Positions 37,027-41,654 of a stretch of DNA of 42,092 nt are shown here, in pieces. Position 1 is the stretch's first letter. Each line of letters opens with the position of its first letter. The notes beneath the pieces are model-generated. The model had not been told where the DNA came from. It saw only the letters and a list, made by a program, of their open reading frames with translations, and made no database searches. The stretch spans positions 1 through 42,092 of the forward strand of contig CAMWGV010000023.1 of NCBI GenBank assembly GCA_947173945.1, given 5' to 3'. Source of the stretch: an uncultured Lachnospiraceae bacterium. GTDB taxonomy: Bacteria > Bacillota > Clostridia > Lachnospirales > Lachnospiraceae. A program made the position numbers and the translations under genes.

Positions 37027-37290
37027 ATGCCTCTTATAATGCCTATTAAAGATTTACGCAATACAACTGAAATTTCCAACATTGCACACAAACAGCAGGA
37101 GCCCATTTTTATTACCAAAAACGGATATAGTGACTTAGTTGTTATGAGCAGTGAATTATATGATAAATTTGCAAGAATGAACCGCATTGACCAAGCTATT
37201 TATGAATCTGAGCAGGAGATATTAAACGGAGCCGAAGCAGTAAATGCGGATGTGGTTTTTGCAGAACTGGAGAAAAAGCATTTTGGATAA
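37027..37290 (+). CDS. Type II antitoxin, Phd/YefM family
   Basis: An 87-residue antitoxin. The N-terminal DNA-binding fold starts PLIMPIKDLRNTTEISNIAH and includes EPIFITKNGYSDLVVMS, the Phd/YefM signature; the C-terminal half is the acidic toxin-binding tail. AAAGGAG precedes the ATG. The toxin gene overlaps its last 8 bases. It would neutralise the toxin and repress the operon. Confidence 0.9.
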   Translation: MPLIMPIKDLRNTTEISNIAHKQQEPIFITKNGYSDLVVMSSELYDKFARMNRIDQAIYESEQEILNGAEAVNADVVFAELEKKHFG

Positions 37291-37585
37291 ATACAAAGTA
37301 AAAATTAATCCCAAAGCAATACGTGAATTAGACAGCATTTACCAATATATTGCAAATGAAAAATTGGCTCCTGAAAATGCCAAAGGACAGGTTGACAGAA
37401 TTAAAAAAGCTATTTTAAATTTGGACTCTTTTCCCGAGTCACACCAAGAGCGCAACGAGGGCAGATATGCGGAGAAGGATTATCGACAATTATTGATTGA
37501 CAATTATATCATCATCTTCCGAATAGATGAAACTTACAAAATAGTCTATGTTGTAACTATACAATATCAAGGCCGAAATCTGTAA
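37283..37585 (+). CDS. Type II toxin, RelE/ParE superfamily
   Basis: A 100-residue toxin with the RelE/ParE fold pattern: INPKAIRELDSIYQYI helix, DSFPESHQE, then YRQLLIDNYIIIFRIDE and YVVTIQYQGRNL strands. The first codon in register with the family is TTG at 37283, which overlaps the antitoxin stop by 8 bases and follows GGAG by ten bases; an ATG at 37244 would add 13 unlikely residues. Ribosome-dependent mRNA cleavage (RelE) or gyrase poisoning (ParE) cannot be distinguished here. A terminator follows. Confidence 0.88.
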   Translation: MDKYKVKINPKAIRELDSIYQYIANEKLAPENAKGQVDRIKKAILNLDSFPESHQERNEGRYAEKDYRQLLIDNYIIIFRIDETYKIVYVVTIQYQGRNL

Positions 37586-37640: not shown

Positions 37641-38195
37641 TTATCCTTCACGAAGTGCATCATAAAAAGAATAATCAACCAAACCGCTCATTCTATCTAA
37701 TGCTCCCTTTTCCAATTCCTTTATCATCAGACAATCCGGATGTGGCAGCTTTATATTTGGTCCTGCTTCTATTCCAAATTTATAGCTTGATTGAAAGCCA
37801 CGATTATTATAATTGCGTGGATTTCCCTCAACAAGAATTGCTTTAAATCCCAATCGTTTAGCAGCGTCAAAGCCATATTCTAATATATCTTTTGAAATGT
37901 GCTGTCTTTGCAATTCCGTTTTTACAGCAACAGGCGTCAGTATTAATAATTCGTTTTCATACCTTCCCTCAATATGAAAGCGAGAAAACATCGCATATCC
38001 AATAACCTCGTCTTTCTCTTTTACCATAATAAATTCTAATTCAGGTATATAATATTTTTTTGCACGAATTTCTTCTACTAACTGTCGTACAACCTTTCCT
38101 TCCTCCGGACTATCATATTTTGTAAAAACATCTTCCACCAATTTAAGTGACGGAATAAGATATTTATTTTCCATTGATTTTATAATACGTTCCAT
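37641..38195 (-). CDS. GNAT family N-acetyltransferase
   Basis: A 184-residue predicted acetyltransferase of the YhbS-like GNAT group. The acetyl-CoA core is visible as ELLILTPVAVKTELQRQHIS (the Q/R-x-x-G loop is weakly kept, with Gln-Arg-Gln-His) and the later AILVEGNPRNYNNRGFQSSY. The substrate is unknown. AGGAGG precedes the ATG by ten bases. It lies 137 bases downstream of the MutS2-like gene on the same strand and could be part of its transcript; a CGATTTAC / GTAAATCG hairpin (38255-38273) without a U-run lies between them. Confidence 0.85.
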   Translation of the reverse strand: MERIIKSMENKYLIPSLKLVEDVFTKYDSPEEGKVVRQLVEEIRAKKYYIPELEFIMVKEKDEVIGYAMFSRFHIEGRYENELLILTPVAVKTELQRQHISKDILEYGFDAAKRLGFKAILVEGNPRNYNNRGFQSSYKFGIEAGPNIKLPHPDCLMIKELEKGALDRMSGLVDYSFYDALREG

Positions 38196-38332: not shown

Positions 38333-40234
38333 CTATGATTCTGACTCTATCACAGCATCTGTATATTTTCTTTGCATGTCGTGCCGCTTTTTTCGATTTT
38401 CAACTGTTTCAAATACAATTGAAAAATCATAATCCTCTGGATATAGCTCTGCTGCCGCCACATGAAGTTTTACTCGTTTATGATTAATCCAGATTTTTTT
38501 ATTTGGCAGTTGTACCCTTAATACACCTTTTTCGTTGATTGGAACACACACGATACCTATCTTTTTCTCAGGATAAACCATTACACTATCACCAATTTTA
38601 TATTTGGTACTAAGCTCCACATTATTCTTTCCCTTTTTAGCCTTGGAAATCTTATTGGCATTTTTCTTAATGATATTACTTTCAGGCTTTTGAAACTTAT
38701 AAGACTCCACTGCGTCCTTTCCATATGCAGCACAAATTGCCACCCTTAACATTTCATTTGGCATTCCCAGCCTGTCTGCAATATAAAATGCACAGCTTTC
38801 GCCTGCTTCTCCAATCACCATTTGATAAGTGGGGCTTAATGTTTCCTTATCAAAAGCCATTCTTGCATTGACTATATCCTTTGCTTTCTCTGCATATTCT
38901 TTTACTTCCGGATAATGTGTTGTCACTAAGAAAATGGCACCACTTTTTCTAAGTTCTTCTAATATCGCAATTGCAATCCCCATACCTTCTGTAGGATCTG
39001 TTCCGGAACCTAATTCATCCATAATGACAAAGCTGTCCTTATCCGCTTCACTTAAAACTTCCAGCACATTGGTTATGTGTGCAGAAAATGTAGACAGATT
39101 TTCAGACAGATTCTGACCATCTCCAATATCACATAGATACGAACCATTCAAACAAATATCTGCCTGTTTACATGTCACATGCAACCCACATTGTGCCATA
39201 ATACAATTCAGCATAACCGTTTTAATTGCTACCGTTTTTCCACCCGTGTTTGGACCTGTTATAACAATACCATGTACATTTTCGTCTATATCAAACTGTA
39301 ATGGTACAGCAATTGTTTTATCCATCAAAGGGTGCCTTGCATTCGTTAGTTTGATTCTTCGTTCTGTATTTATCATTGGTTCTATTGCATCCATGTCAAT
39401 GCTTAATTTCCCTTTGGAGAAAATAAAATCTAATTTTTCAATCATTTCCAGATTTTCATTCAACACAGGAGTTGATTCCAATACGATTGCTGACAAAGTA
39501 TATAAAATGCGATACACTTCGTTTTCCTCGCCTATTTTCAGTAGTTCTAGTTCTTCATAATATTTCGCAACACTGGACGGTTCAATAAAAAATGTGCTGC
39601 CCGTAGAAGACTTGTCGATGACGCTACCGGATATCTTAAGTTTATATTCCTTTTTCACTGGAAGGCATATTCGTCCATTTCTAAACGTACAGTAGTTATC
39701 TGCCATGCAATCCTTATAAGAACGCATAATTTGTTCTGCCTTTTGTTTCATCTGTTCTTCACATTTTATAATTTGATTTCGTATCTGTCCTAATTCTTTT
39801 GATGCGTAATCATCCACAACACTATTTCTGATTTTTCTGCATATTTCTTCCCGCAATTCCGAAATGGAATCCAGATTTTCATCATAATAAGCCAAGGAAT
39901 TATTAAACATTTTCCCTCTTGCCAAATAATCCTTCAGCCTTTTTATCGCAACCAAAACTTTTTCTACTCGCTCTAACTGATACGGTGTTAAGCAACCGCC
40001 CTTTTCTGCAATCAACAAAATATCTTTTATTTCAGAGATATTTTGCAATGGCGGTGTTCCTAATTTTTCAATCAGGCTCCTGGCATCTGTTGTATCCCTT
40101 AACTGTTTTCTTAACTCATTTTCAGAAAAGTACAAGGAAACTTCTCTGATTTTTTCTTTTGCCCAGTCAGTAATGGCTAAATCAGCCCATATCTTTTTAA
40201 CTTTATCAAATTCAATTTGTCTCTCAATATTCAT
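38333..40234 (-). CDS. MutS2-like ATPase lacking the Smr nuclease domain
   Basis: A 633-residue MutS-family protein most like MutS2 but missing the C-terminal Smr domain and most of the preceding coiled coil. Seen: MutS2-type core and clamp (about 1-300), Walker A GPNTGGKT (327-334), ABC-like signature LSENLSTFSAH, Walker B VIMDELGSGTDP (D406, E407), the TTHY switch (H440), and the GESCAFYIADRLGMP segment. A KOW-like beta domain (about 545-591) follows, then a short tail with DYDFSIVFETVENRKKRH. Full-length MutS2 (about 785 residues) senses collided ribosomes. This shorter form may act on ribosomes or DNA without cutting. The gene follows a long attenuator-type leader. AAAGGA precedes the ATG. 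Confidence 0.88.
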   Translation of the reverse strand: MNIERQIEFDKVKKIWADLAITDWAKEKIREVSLYFSENELRKQLRDTTDARSLIEKLGTPPLQNISEIKDILLIAEKGGCLTPYQLERVEKVLVAIKRLKDYLARGKMFNNSLAYYDENLDSISELREEICRKIRNSVVDDYASKELGQIRNQIIKCEEQMKQKAEQIMRSYKDCMADNYCTFRNGRICLPVKKEYKLKISGSVIDKSSTGSTFFIEPSSVAKYYEELELLKIGEENEVYRILYTLSAIVLESTPVLNENLEMIEKLDFIFSKGKLSIDMDAIEPMINTERRIKLTNARHPLMDKTIAVPLQFDIDENVHGIVITGPNTGGKTVAIKTVMLNCIMAQCGLHVTCKQADICLNGSYLCDIGDGQNLSENLSTFSAHITNVLEVLSEADKDSFVIMDELGSGTDPTEGMGIAIAILEELRKSGAIFLVTTHYPEVKEYAEKAKDIVNARMAFDKETLSPTYQMVIGEAGESCAFYIADRLGMPNEMLRVAICAAYGKDAVESYKFQKPESNIIKKNANKISKAKKGKNNVELSTKYKIGDSVMVYPEKKIGIVCVPINEKGVLRVQLPNKKIWINHKRVKLHVAAAELYPEDYDFSIVFETVENRKKRHDMQRKYTDAVIESES

Positions 40235-40279
40235 TTTTCTAATCCTTTCAATTTTGAACTATGGGTTCGCCTTAAATGC

Positions 40280-40326
40280 AAAAAAGACCATAGATACCCT
40301 AAGTGCATTAAGATACTATGGTCTTT
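40280..40326 (-). terminator. Attenuator terminator before the MutS2-like gene
   Basis: Minus-strand transcript forms AAAGACCATAG / CTATGGTCTTT (11 bp; 40316-40326 with 40283-40293) followed by a U-run, ending 45 bases before the start codon. A terminator inside the leader of its own gene implies regulated readthrough. The arm GACCATA could instead pair with TATGGTC encoded at 40463-40469. Confidence 0.88.
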
Positions 40327-40367
40327 CAATCTCTATATGATTATTCTATATATTTCAAAAAGAACAA

Positions 40368-40479
40368 AGCGTTTTCAACGCTGCAGTTCGCATCCTAGCA
40401 GGCTCCATAAGGAGCGTGCCTATAGGAAATTCAGAGGAATTTCCTATAAAGTAAAACAGCATGACCATACAGTCATGCT
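40368..40479 (-). promoter_or_regulatory. Hairpin series of the attenuator leader
   Basis: In transcript order: AGCATGAC / GTCATGCT (40458-40479), a perfect 12-bp stem TATAGGAAATTC / GAATTTCCTATA (40421-40448), GCTCC / GGAGC (40402-40415), and AGCGTT / AACGCT (40368-40382). All lie between the leader ORFs and the terminator. Confidence 0.8.
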
Positions 40480-40483
40480 AATA

Positions 40484-40645
40484 TCATTTTGAAAATATAT
40501 TTACCACAATATTAAGCAATTGTAAGGCGAAAACGCTGACAACACATGTTGCCAACAAATAGGTAGACTTCCAGCGTAAACTAAAAATCAACCTTGCAAT
40601 ATTTATTTTGCAATTTTCTCCATTACAATAACACTTAACATGCAA
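40484..40645 (-). other. Overlapping 53-codon leader frame, translation unproven
   Basis: An open frame overlapping the 12-codon leader peptide out of register. It contains a hydrophobic stretch (WKSTYLLATCVVSVFALQLL) and ends five bases before the first hairpin. A TTG at 40645 lies too close to the AGGAGG to be a convincing start, and the internal TTG at 40591 has no good site. Its stop position suggests a ribosome here would cover the first hairpin arm. Confidence 0.4.
40603..40641 (-). CDS. Leader peptide MLSVIVMEKIAK
   Basis: A 12-codon ORF with a perfect AGGAGG (40649-40654) seven bases before its ATG, starting about 20 bases after the predicted transcription start. It encodes MLSVIVMEKIAK. 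The strong initiation site, tiny size and position ahead of a hairpin series and terminator fit a regulatory leader peptide whose translation is sensed. No similar known leader is recognised with certainty. Confidence 0.7.
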   Translation of the reverse strand: MLSVIVMEKIAK

Positions 40646-40668
40646 AATCCTCCTAAAACTTTTTGTTA

Positions 40669-40697
40669 ATTCTACATCATATCATATTGTTGGTCAA
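40669..40697 (-). promoter_or_regulatory. Promoter of the MutS2-like gene
   Basis: Minus strand TTGACC (40692-40697), 17-base spacer, TAGAAT (40669-40674), giving a leader of about 430 bases that fills the 494-base gap. Confidence 0.75.
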
Positions 40698-40728
40698 GTA
40701 CCAATTATAGCTACAAATATTTCAAAAC

Positions 40729-41394
40729 TCATTTACCATATAACGGCAAAATCATCGTAACATAAGAAATCAGGTTATATATCATGTGAGTCAGCATACA
40801 ACAGAATATGGAGCGTGTATGCAGGTAAAGCAAGCCTAATACGATACCACAGATAAATGCGGAAAGTGTCTGCACCATATTAAAATGAAGCAACGCAAAC
40901 ATGAATGATGATGCAAATAATGCTTTTACTGTTCCGTAGCTTACTGACAACCCATCAAGCAAAAAACCTCTCATTAAAATTTCCTCTATAATCGGTGCAA
41001 GGATGCAAATTTGAATTAAGCTGACAACAGGTGCCTCACTTAAAGATTTAAGTGTTTCCTGATAATTCTCCTCACTTACAGGGAAAATGCTTTCAAATAC
41101 AGAGTCTAAGCCCTTGTCTAAAAGGAAGTATAATAATACGGCACAACCTATCGCCAATAAGATTCCTTGCAGTGCAATATTCCCGAACAAATTAATTTTA
41201 AAATTATTTTTTTTCGTCAGTAAAAATATAAACGCAAGCATGCATAAAGCAATTGATAACAAATTCAAATATTTTCCATAAACAGGAACTGCCTTTCTCA
41301 ACACCACCACATCAACAGCAGTATATAGCAGCATGAATCCAAACCAAACAAGTGTCCACCAAATACCCTTACCGAGAGATATTCCGTCTTTCAT
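40729..41394 (-). CDS. CPBP family intramembrane metalloprotease (CAAX-type)
   Basis: A 221-residue membrane protein with about seven helices and the CPBP/Abi motifs: EE at 137-138 with R142 (IIEEILMRG), FALLH (H170) and THMIYN (H203, N207). In bacteria such proteins are linked to bacteriocin self-immunity, peptide maturation or signalling. AAGGAG lies ten bases before the ATG at 41394; the longer frame to 41424 places that site inside the gene. It follows two small membrane-protein genes on the same strand and ends just before the MutS2-like promoter. Confidence 0.9.
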   Translation of the reverse strand: MKDGISLGKGIWWTLVWFGFMLLYTAVDVVVLRKAVPVYGKYLNLLSIALCMLAFIFLLTKKNNFKINLFGNIALQGILLAIGCAVLLYFLLDKGLDSVFESIFPVSEENYQETLKSLSEAPVVSLIQICILAPIIEEILMRGFLLDGLSVSYGTVKALFASSFMFALLHFNMVQTLSAFICGIVLGLLYLHTRSIFCCMLTHMIYNLISYVTMILPLYGK

Positions 41395-41408
41395 ACCATG
41401 TATTCTCC

Positions 41409-41654
41409 TTATAAATACCACCAAATAATCTCATCTAAAATATCAAGTAACACCTCAAATGCACCGTTCCTAAACGCATTACTTAGTTTACATAATTTAA
41501 TCAGACTGCCGAATATCAGATATATACCGACCAAAAGCACTAAAAATCCCAGAAAACCATCAGGAGCTTCAAACACATGTACCTGCAAGAAAACCATCAA
41601 CAAACCTGTTATTAGTAATAATGTGTATAAGATAACTTTATGTTTCTTCTTCAT
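41409..41654 (-). CDS. Small membrane protein, unknown function
   Basis: An 81-residue protein with two predicted membrane helices (about 5-25 and 32-54) and a short C-terminal tail ending EIIWWYL. GGGAGTGG precedes the ATG at 41654. It lies 14 bases upstream of the CPBP gene and 26 bases after the next gene, so the three probably form one operon. No family is recognised. Confidence 0.7.
   Translation of the reverse strand: MKKKHKVILYTLLLITGLLMVFLQVHVFEAPDGFLGFLVLLVGIYLIFGSLIKLCKLSNAFRNGAFEVLLDILDEIIWWYL

Follow-up and report, generated by a model that had tools for sequence, protein, structure and literature searches.

Organization of the locus

The window, i.e. the whole stretch of 42,092 nucleotides analysed here, carries on its minus strand a gene for a 633-aa MutS2-like protein. 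The gap in front of this gene (40235-40728) holds a promoter, a 12-codon upstream open reading frame (uORF), several hairpins and two terminator-like hairpins. A CPBP protease gene (40729-41424, minus strand) lies upstream and is co-directional with the leader. The features are listed below in the order of transcription.

40669..40697, minus strand: sigma-70-type promoter TTGACC-17-TAGAAT, consensus score 10/12
40649..40654, minus strand: Shine-Dalgarno sequence AGGAGG of the uORF, 7 bases before the ATG, from the sequence
40603..40641, minus strand: uORF MLSVIVMEKIAK, 12 codons, candidate stall sensor, intact in 64/64 aligned leaders
40614..40638, minus strand: P1 5' strand, uORF codons 2-10 (UUAAG..AUUGUAAUGGAGAAAA), from the RNAalifold core, a hand-made extension and the swap test
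40594..40613, minus strand: P1a hairpin, UUGCAA..UUGCAA, whose loop holds the uORF stop codon, from RNAalifold and the covariation count
40562..40593, minus strand: P2 hairpin, double changes at 1/2 outer pairs (helix 4) and 4/6 pairs of the inner helix (helix 5)
40534..40557, minus strand: P3 hairpin, double changes at 8/9 pairs
40512..40533, minus strand: P1 3' strand UUUUCGCCUUACAAUUGCUUAA, from the alignment, RNAalifold, the swap test and covariation
40504..40518, minus strand: 5' strand of AT1 (antiterminator 1), UGCUUAAUAUUGUGG, from the test of own against swapped partners
40476..40484, minus strand: AT1 3' strand AUAUUAGCA, overlapping the T1 5' arm, from the swap test and compensatory changes seen by eye
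40457..40480, minus strand: T1, terminator-like hairpin with U-run, homologous hairpin accepted in 53/62 leaders
40364..40450, minus strand: 87-bp repeat between T1 and T2, found at 9 places in its own genome
40280..40326, minus strand: T2, Rho-independent terminator with U-run, ending about 45 bases before the gene ATG at 40234
38333..40234, minus strand: MutS2-like gene, 633 aa, with MutS2 core, ATPase and KOW-like C-terminal part, without SMR
37641..38195, minus strand: GNAT acetyltransferase gene downstream of the MutS2-like gene, a homologue of which stands immediately behind a copy of this leader in genome G131

The original prediction, made from this DNA alone, had described a consensus promoter, a 12-codon ORF with a perfect AGGAGG and a terminator about 45 bases before the ATG, and all three were recovered here (promoter at 40697-40669 and conserved in relatives; Shine-Dalgarno sequence at 40654-40649 and uORF at 40641-40603; hairpin at 40326-40283 followed by a U-run). 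Its first hairpin is also present, at 40480-40457 with a U-run. The second overlapping frame that it mentioned exists (TTG start, LQNKYCKVDF), but by eye its length and stop vary among relatives, and of its four hairpins, which are there, some fall in the 87-bp repeat insert. P1, P1a, P2, P3 and AT1 were not part of that prediction.

The leader folds far more stably than shuffled sequences (z = -7.5, with 0/100 shuffles as good). No Rfam family reached its gathering score in the whole window, and a search of the leader against Rfam at E values up to 1 gave three weak, implausible and unrelated matches and nothing else. The leader had no match in the plasmid and phage DNA searched. The 87-bp repeat (40364-40450) is palindrome-rich and occurs at 9 places in the genome, 5 of them full-length, with 82-100% identity. 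T1 and T2 lie much closer together in several relatives (L007 and L010), so their layout is independent of the repeat insert, which probably lies outside the switch. One relative, L019, has a palindromic insertion (MITE-like by eye) within the T2 loop with both T2 arms intact, and L128 has a similar insertion. Elsewhere in the window, two overlapping plus-strand ORFs (37027-37585) resemble by eye a RelB/Phd-type antitoxin and a ParE/RelE-type toxin.

The MutS2-like protein and its family

The protein scored 534.6 bits against TIGR01069 (endonuclease MutS2; cut-off 400), over positions 3-507 only of the 790 in the profile, and it did not reach the cut-off of KamC (NF052383; 222.6 bits vs 300). 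Residues 6-499 align with MutS2 structures. The C-terminus resembled the KOW region of MutS2 in hhalign (probability 86.8, P = 4.3e-6, 40 columns) and ends in a family-specific tail; the AlphaFold model (mean pLDDT 55.7) does not resolve it. The SMR domain (PF01713) was absent from all seven SMR-less proteins scanned and present in all three full-length ones, one of which was covered by its C-terminal part. MSSS (PF20297) was likewise matched by the three full-length proteins, and the seven SMR-less proteins had no match at E 0.05. In a tree of 31 proteins, a single branch with 100/100 support divided 23 SMR-less from 8 full-length members. By these sequence comparisons the gene belongs to an SMR-less branch of MutS2 that is apart from the housekeeping MutS2, and a full-length MutS2 is also encoded in the same genome.

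SMR-less copies were found in at least 44 of 200 Lachnospiraceae genomes, including its own (sorted by eye on extent and open-frame length), and in at least 26 of 398 Bacillota genomes besides its own (also sorted by eye), these counts being lower bounds set by the E-value limits. Genome G180, of the same genus, had no SMR-less copy at the cut-off, so the gene looks patchy. Database records name the family 'endonuclease MutS2' or 'DNA mismatch repair protein MutS'. Open-licence PMC articles, which take in neither subscription papers nor preprints, yielded among the matches listed no leader of a MutS2-like gene and no SMR-less MutS2 family. A reading of the protein as part of a defence system was not adopted; PADLOC gave it one weak match (mad8, 23.3 bits).

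Conservation of the uORF and promoter

A search of GTDB genome contigs with the MutS2-like protein found 226 relatives, of which the best 80 (69-94% identity) were taken. Two loci in which the match begins inside the gene (L028 and L029) were dropped, which left 78. The uORF adjoins the gene in 63 of these 78 usable relatives (64 with the window). Together with the conserved promoter, this bears out the proposed link of a uORF-type attenuator layout with the MutS2-like gene. In three other loci the contig end cuts the leader and terminator or core pieces remain (L041, L045 and L005, the last with only 77 nt of upstream sequence); in L078 the leader has diverged, and in L046 a full leader lies about 2.4 kb upstream of the gene. 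Partial matches lie at the outer limit of the available flanking DNA in L061 and L062, and weakly likewise in L038 (E = 0.055). No leader was found in the available flanking DNA of the other seven of the 78 loci (L022, L032, L035, L040, L042, L044 and L060). In L080 the uORF is kept and the RNA behind it fits the covariance model weakly (25.4 bits).

In all 64 aligned leaders (the window and 63 loci), a conserved short ORF with a ribosome-binding site stands at the start of the leader and is intact at the sequence level, with 12 codons in 59 of them and 10-11 in five, which differ by whole codons. L, S/I/N and V predominate at residues 2-4. Of the 45 distinct 12-codon uORFs, 39 have GTN as their fourth codon, and its third base is G in 18, T in 10, A in 9 and C in 2. 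In the proposed structure this codon falls in an internal loop of P1 and its third base is therefore free at the RNA level. Val is mostly kept all the same, which places the constraint on the peptide. The uORF matches none of the stalling motifs found in the literature consulted.

Promoter-like sites as such are no rarer than chance, since four sites scoring at least 9 occur on both strands of a 600-nt region where 3.7 are expected. Their position carries the evidence: 48/62 leaders have a site scoring at least 10 shortly before the uORF, mostly at the same distance, against 0/60 control windows with such a site, and at a score of at least 9 the counts are 51/62 and 5/60.

Terminators and uORFs in the wider family

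Terminators within 300 nt upstream were found for 124 of 144 SMR-less genes and for 4 of 20 full-length mutS2 genes. By group, they preceded 62/64 leader-bearing genes (a group chosen for its leader), 6/14 others and 56/66 distant SMR-less genes (a set that excludes L154 and includes a misplaced window, L114). On the reverse strand the counts were 5/64, 1/14 and 4/66, with 4/20 for full-length mutS2. The distant and near sets overlap, as L127/L030 and L123/L071 look like the same genomes. A terminator thus stands between uORF and gene, by sequence, in 62 of 64 leaders within 300 nt. In line with the attenuator layout that had been predicted, upstream terminators are a mark of the SMR-less branch, which the sample of 20 ordinary mutS2 genes does not share.

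Distant members in Bacillota have other uORFs, among those picked by eye MLSIVVMEIVAK, MSVLSVMVIIN, MLGVVLN, MLVSVLN and MTTGVLN. By eye, the end of the uORF in Paenibacillus and Cytobacillus, GTTCTTAACTAA, is followed at a distance by a nearly identical copy of its reverse complement, and two terminator-like hairpins come after that copy. A set of 44 distant uORFs was chosen by eye in 71 upstream regions; 14 of them pair downstream at z < -2 against shuffles, so this evidence supports the use of the uORF as a pairing strand for part of the family.

RNA structure and covariation

RNAalifold, run unaided on 43 leaders, returned a stem that joins the uORF to the UUUUCGCCUUACA strand, together with P1a, P2 and P3. 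This gave the core of P1, and the extension was added by hand. In the hand-extended structure 93.1% of the alignment cells pair and 18 of 42 pairs are doubly changed, which 0/500 shuffles reach, although the structure was partly derived from the alignment used to score it and the shuffles leave relatedness in place. The covariation lies mostly in P3 (8/9 pairs) and the inner P2 helix (4/6), and the P1 pairs are mostly invariant (2/14 doubly changed, 1/5 in the extension). P3 is missing from L049, L056 and L084, and the last of these has no P2 either; the uORF and its partner strand are kept in all three. The sequence AGTCTGCCC, which adjoins P2/P3, is nearly invariant.

The pairings were also compared by a swap test, in which the duplex energy of each locus's own strands is set against that of swapped partner strands over 5000 swaps. 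For P1 the means were -16.37 kcal/mol (own) and -15.00 kcal/mol (swapped) across 62 loci, and 0/5000 swaps were as good, both in the full set and in 34 thinned loci. An earlier count, limited to seven of the P1 pairs and made over 60 loci, came to 22/20000 with Watson-Crick pairs and 893/20000 when G-U was allowed. AT1 reached -8.63 vs -7.74 kcal/mol (53 loci), with 1/5000 swaps as good and 69/5000 in 34 thinned loci. Tests that use T1 omit L021, L049, L067, L070, L076 and L080, where the T1 call looked non-homologous. Compensatory changes in AT1 are visible by eye: UGC/GCA becomes UGU/ACA in L047, L048, L053 and L065, which have UUGUUUU with AGAACA or AAAACA, and L064 has CGCUU with GAGCG. 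The pairings that include the uORF and exclude one another are thus found as conserved potential pairings, in which relatedness partly remains. An alternative pairing, AAUAUUGCAA:UUGCUUAAUAUU, was dropped by eye, as the partner changes without compensation.

The original prediction placed the switch in a pairing between TATGGTC of the T1 3' arm (40469-40463) and GACCATA of the T2 5' arm (40323-40317). This complementarity is present and conserved, but it does not co-vary: the energies were -8.33 (own) vs -8.04 kcal/mol (swapped) with 498/5000 swaps as good in 43 loci, and 1528/5000 after thinning to 27 loci. These loci are the 46 of 62 leaders in which T2 was found by script, reduced to 43 after the six T1-doubtful loci were dropped. 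In the four pairings used as controls, between 508 and 4070 of 5000 swaps were as good, and a duplex of the AT1 strand and the T2 5' arm (X:E; -9.05 kcal/mol, 508/5000) is as strong as the T1-T2 pairing. The swap tests therefore give co-variation support for P1 and AT1 and none for TATGGTC:GACCATA. In the more distant leaders L051, L056 and L076, T2 reads GACCATGGTAT..GGCAGCCATGGTC; CAUGGCUGU of the usual T1 complements its 3' arm GCAGCCAUG too, which would let T1 pair with either T2 arm. The core switch suggested by these comparisons, P1/AT1, differs from the pairing first proposed, lies upstream of it and appears better supported.

Other genes under the same leader

The covariance model found one leader copy in its own genome and, at E 0.001, 38 matches in 36 of 397 Lachnospiraceae genomes. 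Directly behind the leader there is a MutS2-like gene in 30 of the 38 matches (G045, G115, G133 and G131:C65 being assigned to this group by position), an ABC-2 operon in four (G742:C104, G163, G714 and G179, in the last of which the MutS2-like gene follows the operon), a GNAT gene in two (a relative of the window GNAT in G131:C55 and another GNAT in G166:C27), a methyltransferase-domain protein, with the MutS2-like gene next in line, in one (G687) and a contig end in one (G182). A further ABC-2 operon under the leader was seen in G136, from a search set that shares genomes with the 397-genome scan. The ABC ATPase under the leader resembles DrrA below the cut-off, and the permeases are of the ABC2_membrane_6 type. 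In PADLOC the ATPase gave generic ATPase matches (best mad3, 82.3 bits), and two GNATs and one permease gave no match. One stall-type leader serving efflux, acetylation, methylation and ribosome rescue would fit an antibiotic response. GNAT as a fixed partner of the MutS2-like gene was rejected, as it lies downstream in 6/78 loci, one of them a fragment.

In G630 (L210) the MutS2-like gene under the leader seems to be split into two frames. In L121 (G003) and L184 a remnant of an ABC-2 permease tail can be made out by eye behind the leader and ahead of the MutS2-like gene, which looks like what a leader-ABC-MutS2 operon would leave after deletion of its transporter.

A proposed switch and its alternatives

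Sequence comparison indicates that the leader in front of the MutS2-like gene is real, conserved and of attenuator type. We propose, with a probability of about 0.7, that it is a ribosome-mediated transcription attenuator in which a ribosome stalled on the uORF opens P1 and thereby induces a ribosome-splitting, SMR-less MutS2 paralogue. The -10 box would place the transcription start some 20 nt ahead of the uORF. When ribosomes have finished the uORF, or are absent, the uORF RNA would pair with the conserved downstream strand (P1) and hide UGCUUAAUAU, the strand needed by AT1. T1 and then T2 would form and most transcripts would stop before the MutS2-like gene. A ribosome stalled on the uORF would block P1, the trigger probably being an antibiotic that binds the tunnel or the PTC, in combination with the nascent MLSV.. 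peptide. The freed UGCUUAAUAUUG could then pair with the T1 5' arm (AT1) before the T1 3' arm is made. With T1 failing, the T2 5' arm may be captured by the T1 3' arm and the polymerase would read through. The protein made in this way would be a MutS2 paralogue without SMR, and its task would be to split stalled ribosomes.

The conserved uORF with peptide-level constraint, the promoter, P1/P2/P3, the terminator-like hairpins and the attachment of the leader to resistance-like genes are backed by comparison among relatives. Translation of the uORF, ribosome stalling on it, the drug, transcript ends and read-through at both terminator-like hairpins, the T1-T2 step and ribosome splitting by this MutS2-like protein are inferred. 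In folding calculations on transcripts ending inside T1, blocking the uORF raised the mean AT1 probability from 0.08 to 0.48 (53 loci), with a rise of more than 0.2 in 36/53 loci and a fall in none. Once the full T1 is present, T1 beats AT1 at equilibrium even with the uORF blocked, and drops by more than 0.2 in only 5/53. Equilibrium switching of T1 was therefore rejected; the switch, if real, must be kinetic, and the kinetic model survives.

What the uORF senses is the point on which the nearest alternative differs. It might be a general sensor of translation stress, so that any slow or stalled ribosome, whether from drugs, amino-acid shortage or collisions, would open P1 and the peptide would not be specific for a drug. 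The peptide varies much past about residue 4 in the wider family, down to MLIASL (6 aa), and collision rescue is a general need. The E. coli leader toiL is described as sensing at least five antibiotic classes by stalling at different codons (PMC12121999). The constraint on residues 2-4, with Val at codon 4 in 39/45 uORFs while its third base is free, points instead to recognition of the nascent peptide, and we regard the general sensor as unlikely. Leu, Val and Ile, in which the uORF is rich, could suggest an amino-acid attenuator in the style of the trp and his leaders, with ribosomes stalling for lack of charged tRNA. This is very improbable, as the uORF has no run of a single regulatory codon, codon 5 varies among Ile, Val, Phe, Leu, Thr, Ala and Asn, and the genes under the leader (MutS2-like, ABC-2, GNAT and methyltransferase) are not those of amino-acid biosynthesis.

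Co-variation in P2 and P3 and the nearly invariant sequence beside them would suit a ligand riboswitch or a protein-binding leader, the uORF being incidental. The peptide-level constraint, the lack of any Rfam family at gathering score and the leaders that lose P3, or P2 and P3, while keeping the uORF and its partner strand leave this only a slim chance. Two constitutive terminators could shield the gene from upstream transcription, to which the co-directional CPBP gene would contribute, with the short ORF there by chance. This is barely credible for a uORF, promoter and RNA that are conserved over 69-94% protein identity and on different genes. The attenuator that we propose would probably be antibiotic-induced.

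A broader reading, which we consider an even bet, is that a new class of antibiotic-responsive attenuator runs a small Lachnospiraceae regulon of SMR-less MutS2, ABC-2 exporter, GNAT acetyltransferases and a methyltransferase, and that SMR-less MutS2 proteins across the Bacillota are uORF-controlled splitters of drug-jammed ribosomes, the MutS-type counterpart of HflXr. If so, common gut bacteria would have a direct tie between ribosome-collision rescue and inducible drug tolerance, a MutS2-like family now labelled as endonuclease or mismatch repair would gain a function, and the leader would become a tag for finding resistance genes not yet known. B. subtilis probably has further ribosome splitters besides MutS2, according to PMC11633108, and the SMR-less family bears on that question.

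Comparison with known systems

The original prediction regarded the gene type as one not commonly known to be regulated in this way. It is less unexpected given that B. subtilis MutS2 splits stalled ribosomes, its loss causing sensitivity to erythromycin, chloramphenicol and tetracycline and its Walker B mutant being inactive (PMC10897456). The window protein resembles B. subtilis MutS2 in its core, ATPase (query 6-499) and KOW-like part, but it has no SMR and is one 100/100 branch away from full-length MutS2. Removal of SMR strongly lowers ribosome binding of B. subtilis MutS2 and leaves intermediate activity, and SMR mutations cause a very modest erythromycin sensitivity (PMC10897456). An SMR-less splitter is therefore possible but not given.

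Like the erm(A) and msrD leaders, the window has a short hydrophobic uORF near the 5' end and alternative hairpins, but the regulated gene is neither an rRNA methyltransferase nor an ABC-F. On msrDL (MYLIFM), erythromycin stalls the ribosome with codon 6 in the P site and blocks the terminator, as PMC10314930 describes. SVIVME of the window uORF recalls the IAVV stalling motif of ErmAL1 (PMC12698558) without matching it exactly. B. subtilis bmrB-bmrCD is a case of ribosome-mediated transcription attenuation of an ABC transporter (PMC4191407), and the present leader precedes ABC-2 operons in 4/38 matches; from the published description, the bmrCD transporter and its leader peptide appear unrelated to the present ones.

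The HflXr protein of Listeria is an HflX GTPase. Its gene hflXr (lmo0762) has the leader rli80 with a 14-aa uORF and a premature terminator, and is induced by lincomycin and erythromycin, as given in PMC6310831. Unlike hflXr, with its RLR-motif uORF and HflX product, the window has a MutS2 ATPase, two tandem terminator-like hairpins and a uORF that is itself a paired strand, and drug induction is here a prediction. Both would place a paralogue of a ribosome-splitting factor under a uORF-dependent transcription attenuator (PMC6310831). By analogy, the logic of the leader appears closest to that of Listeria HflXr.
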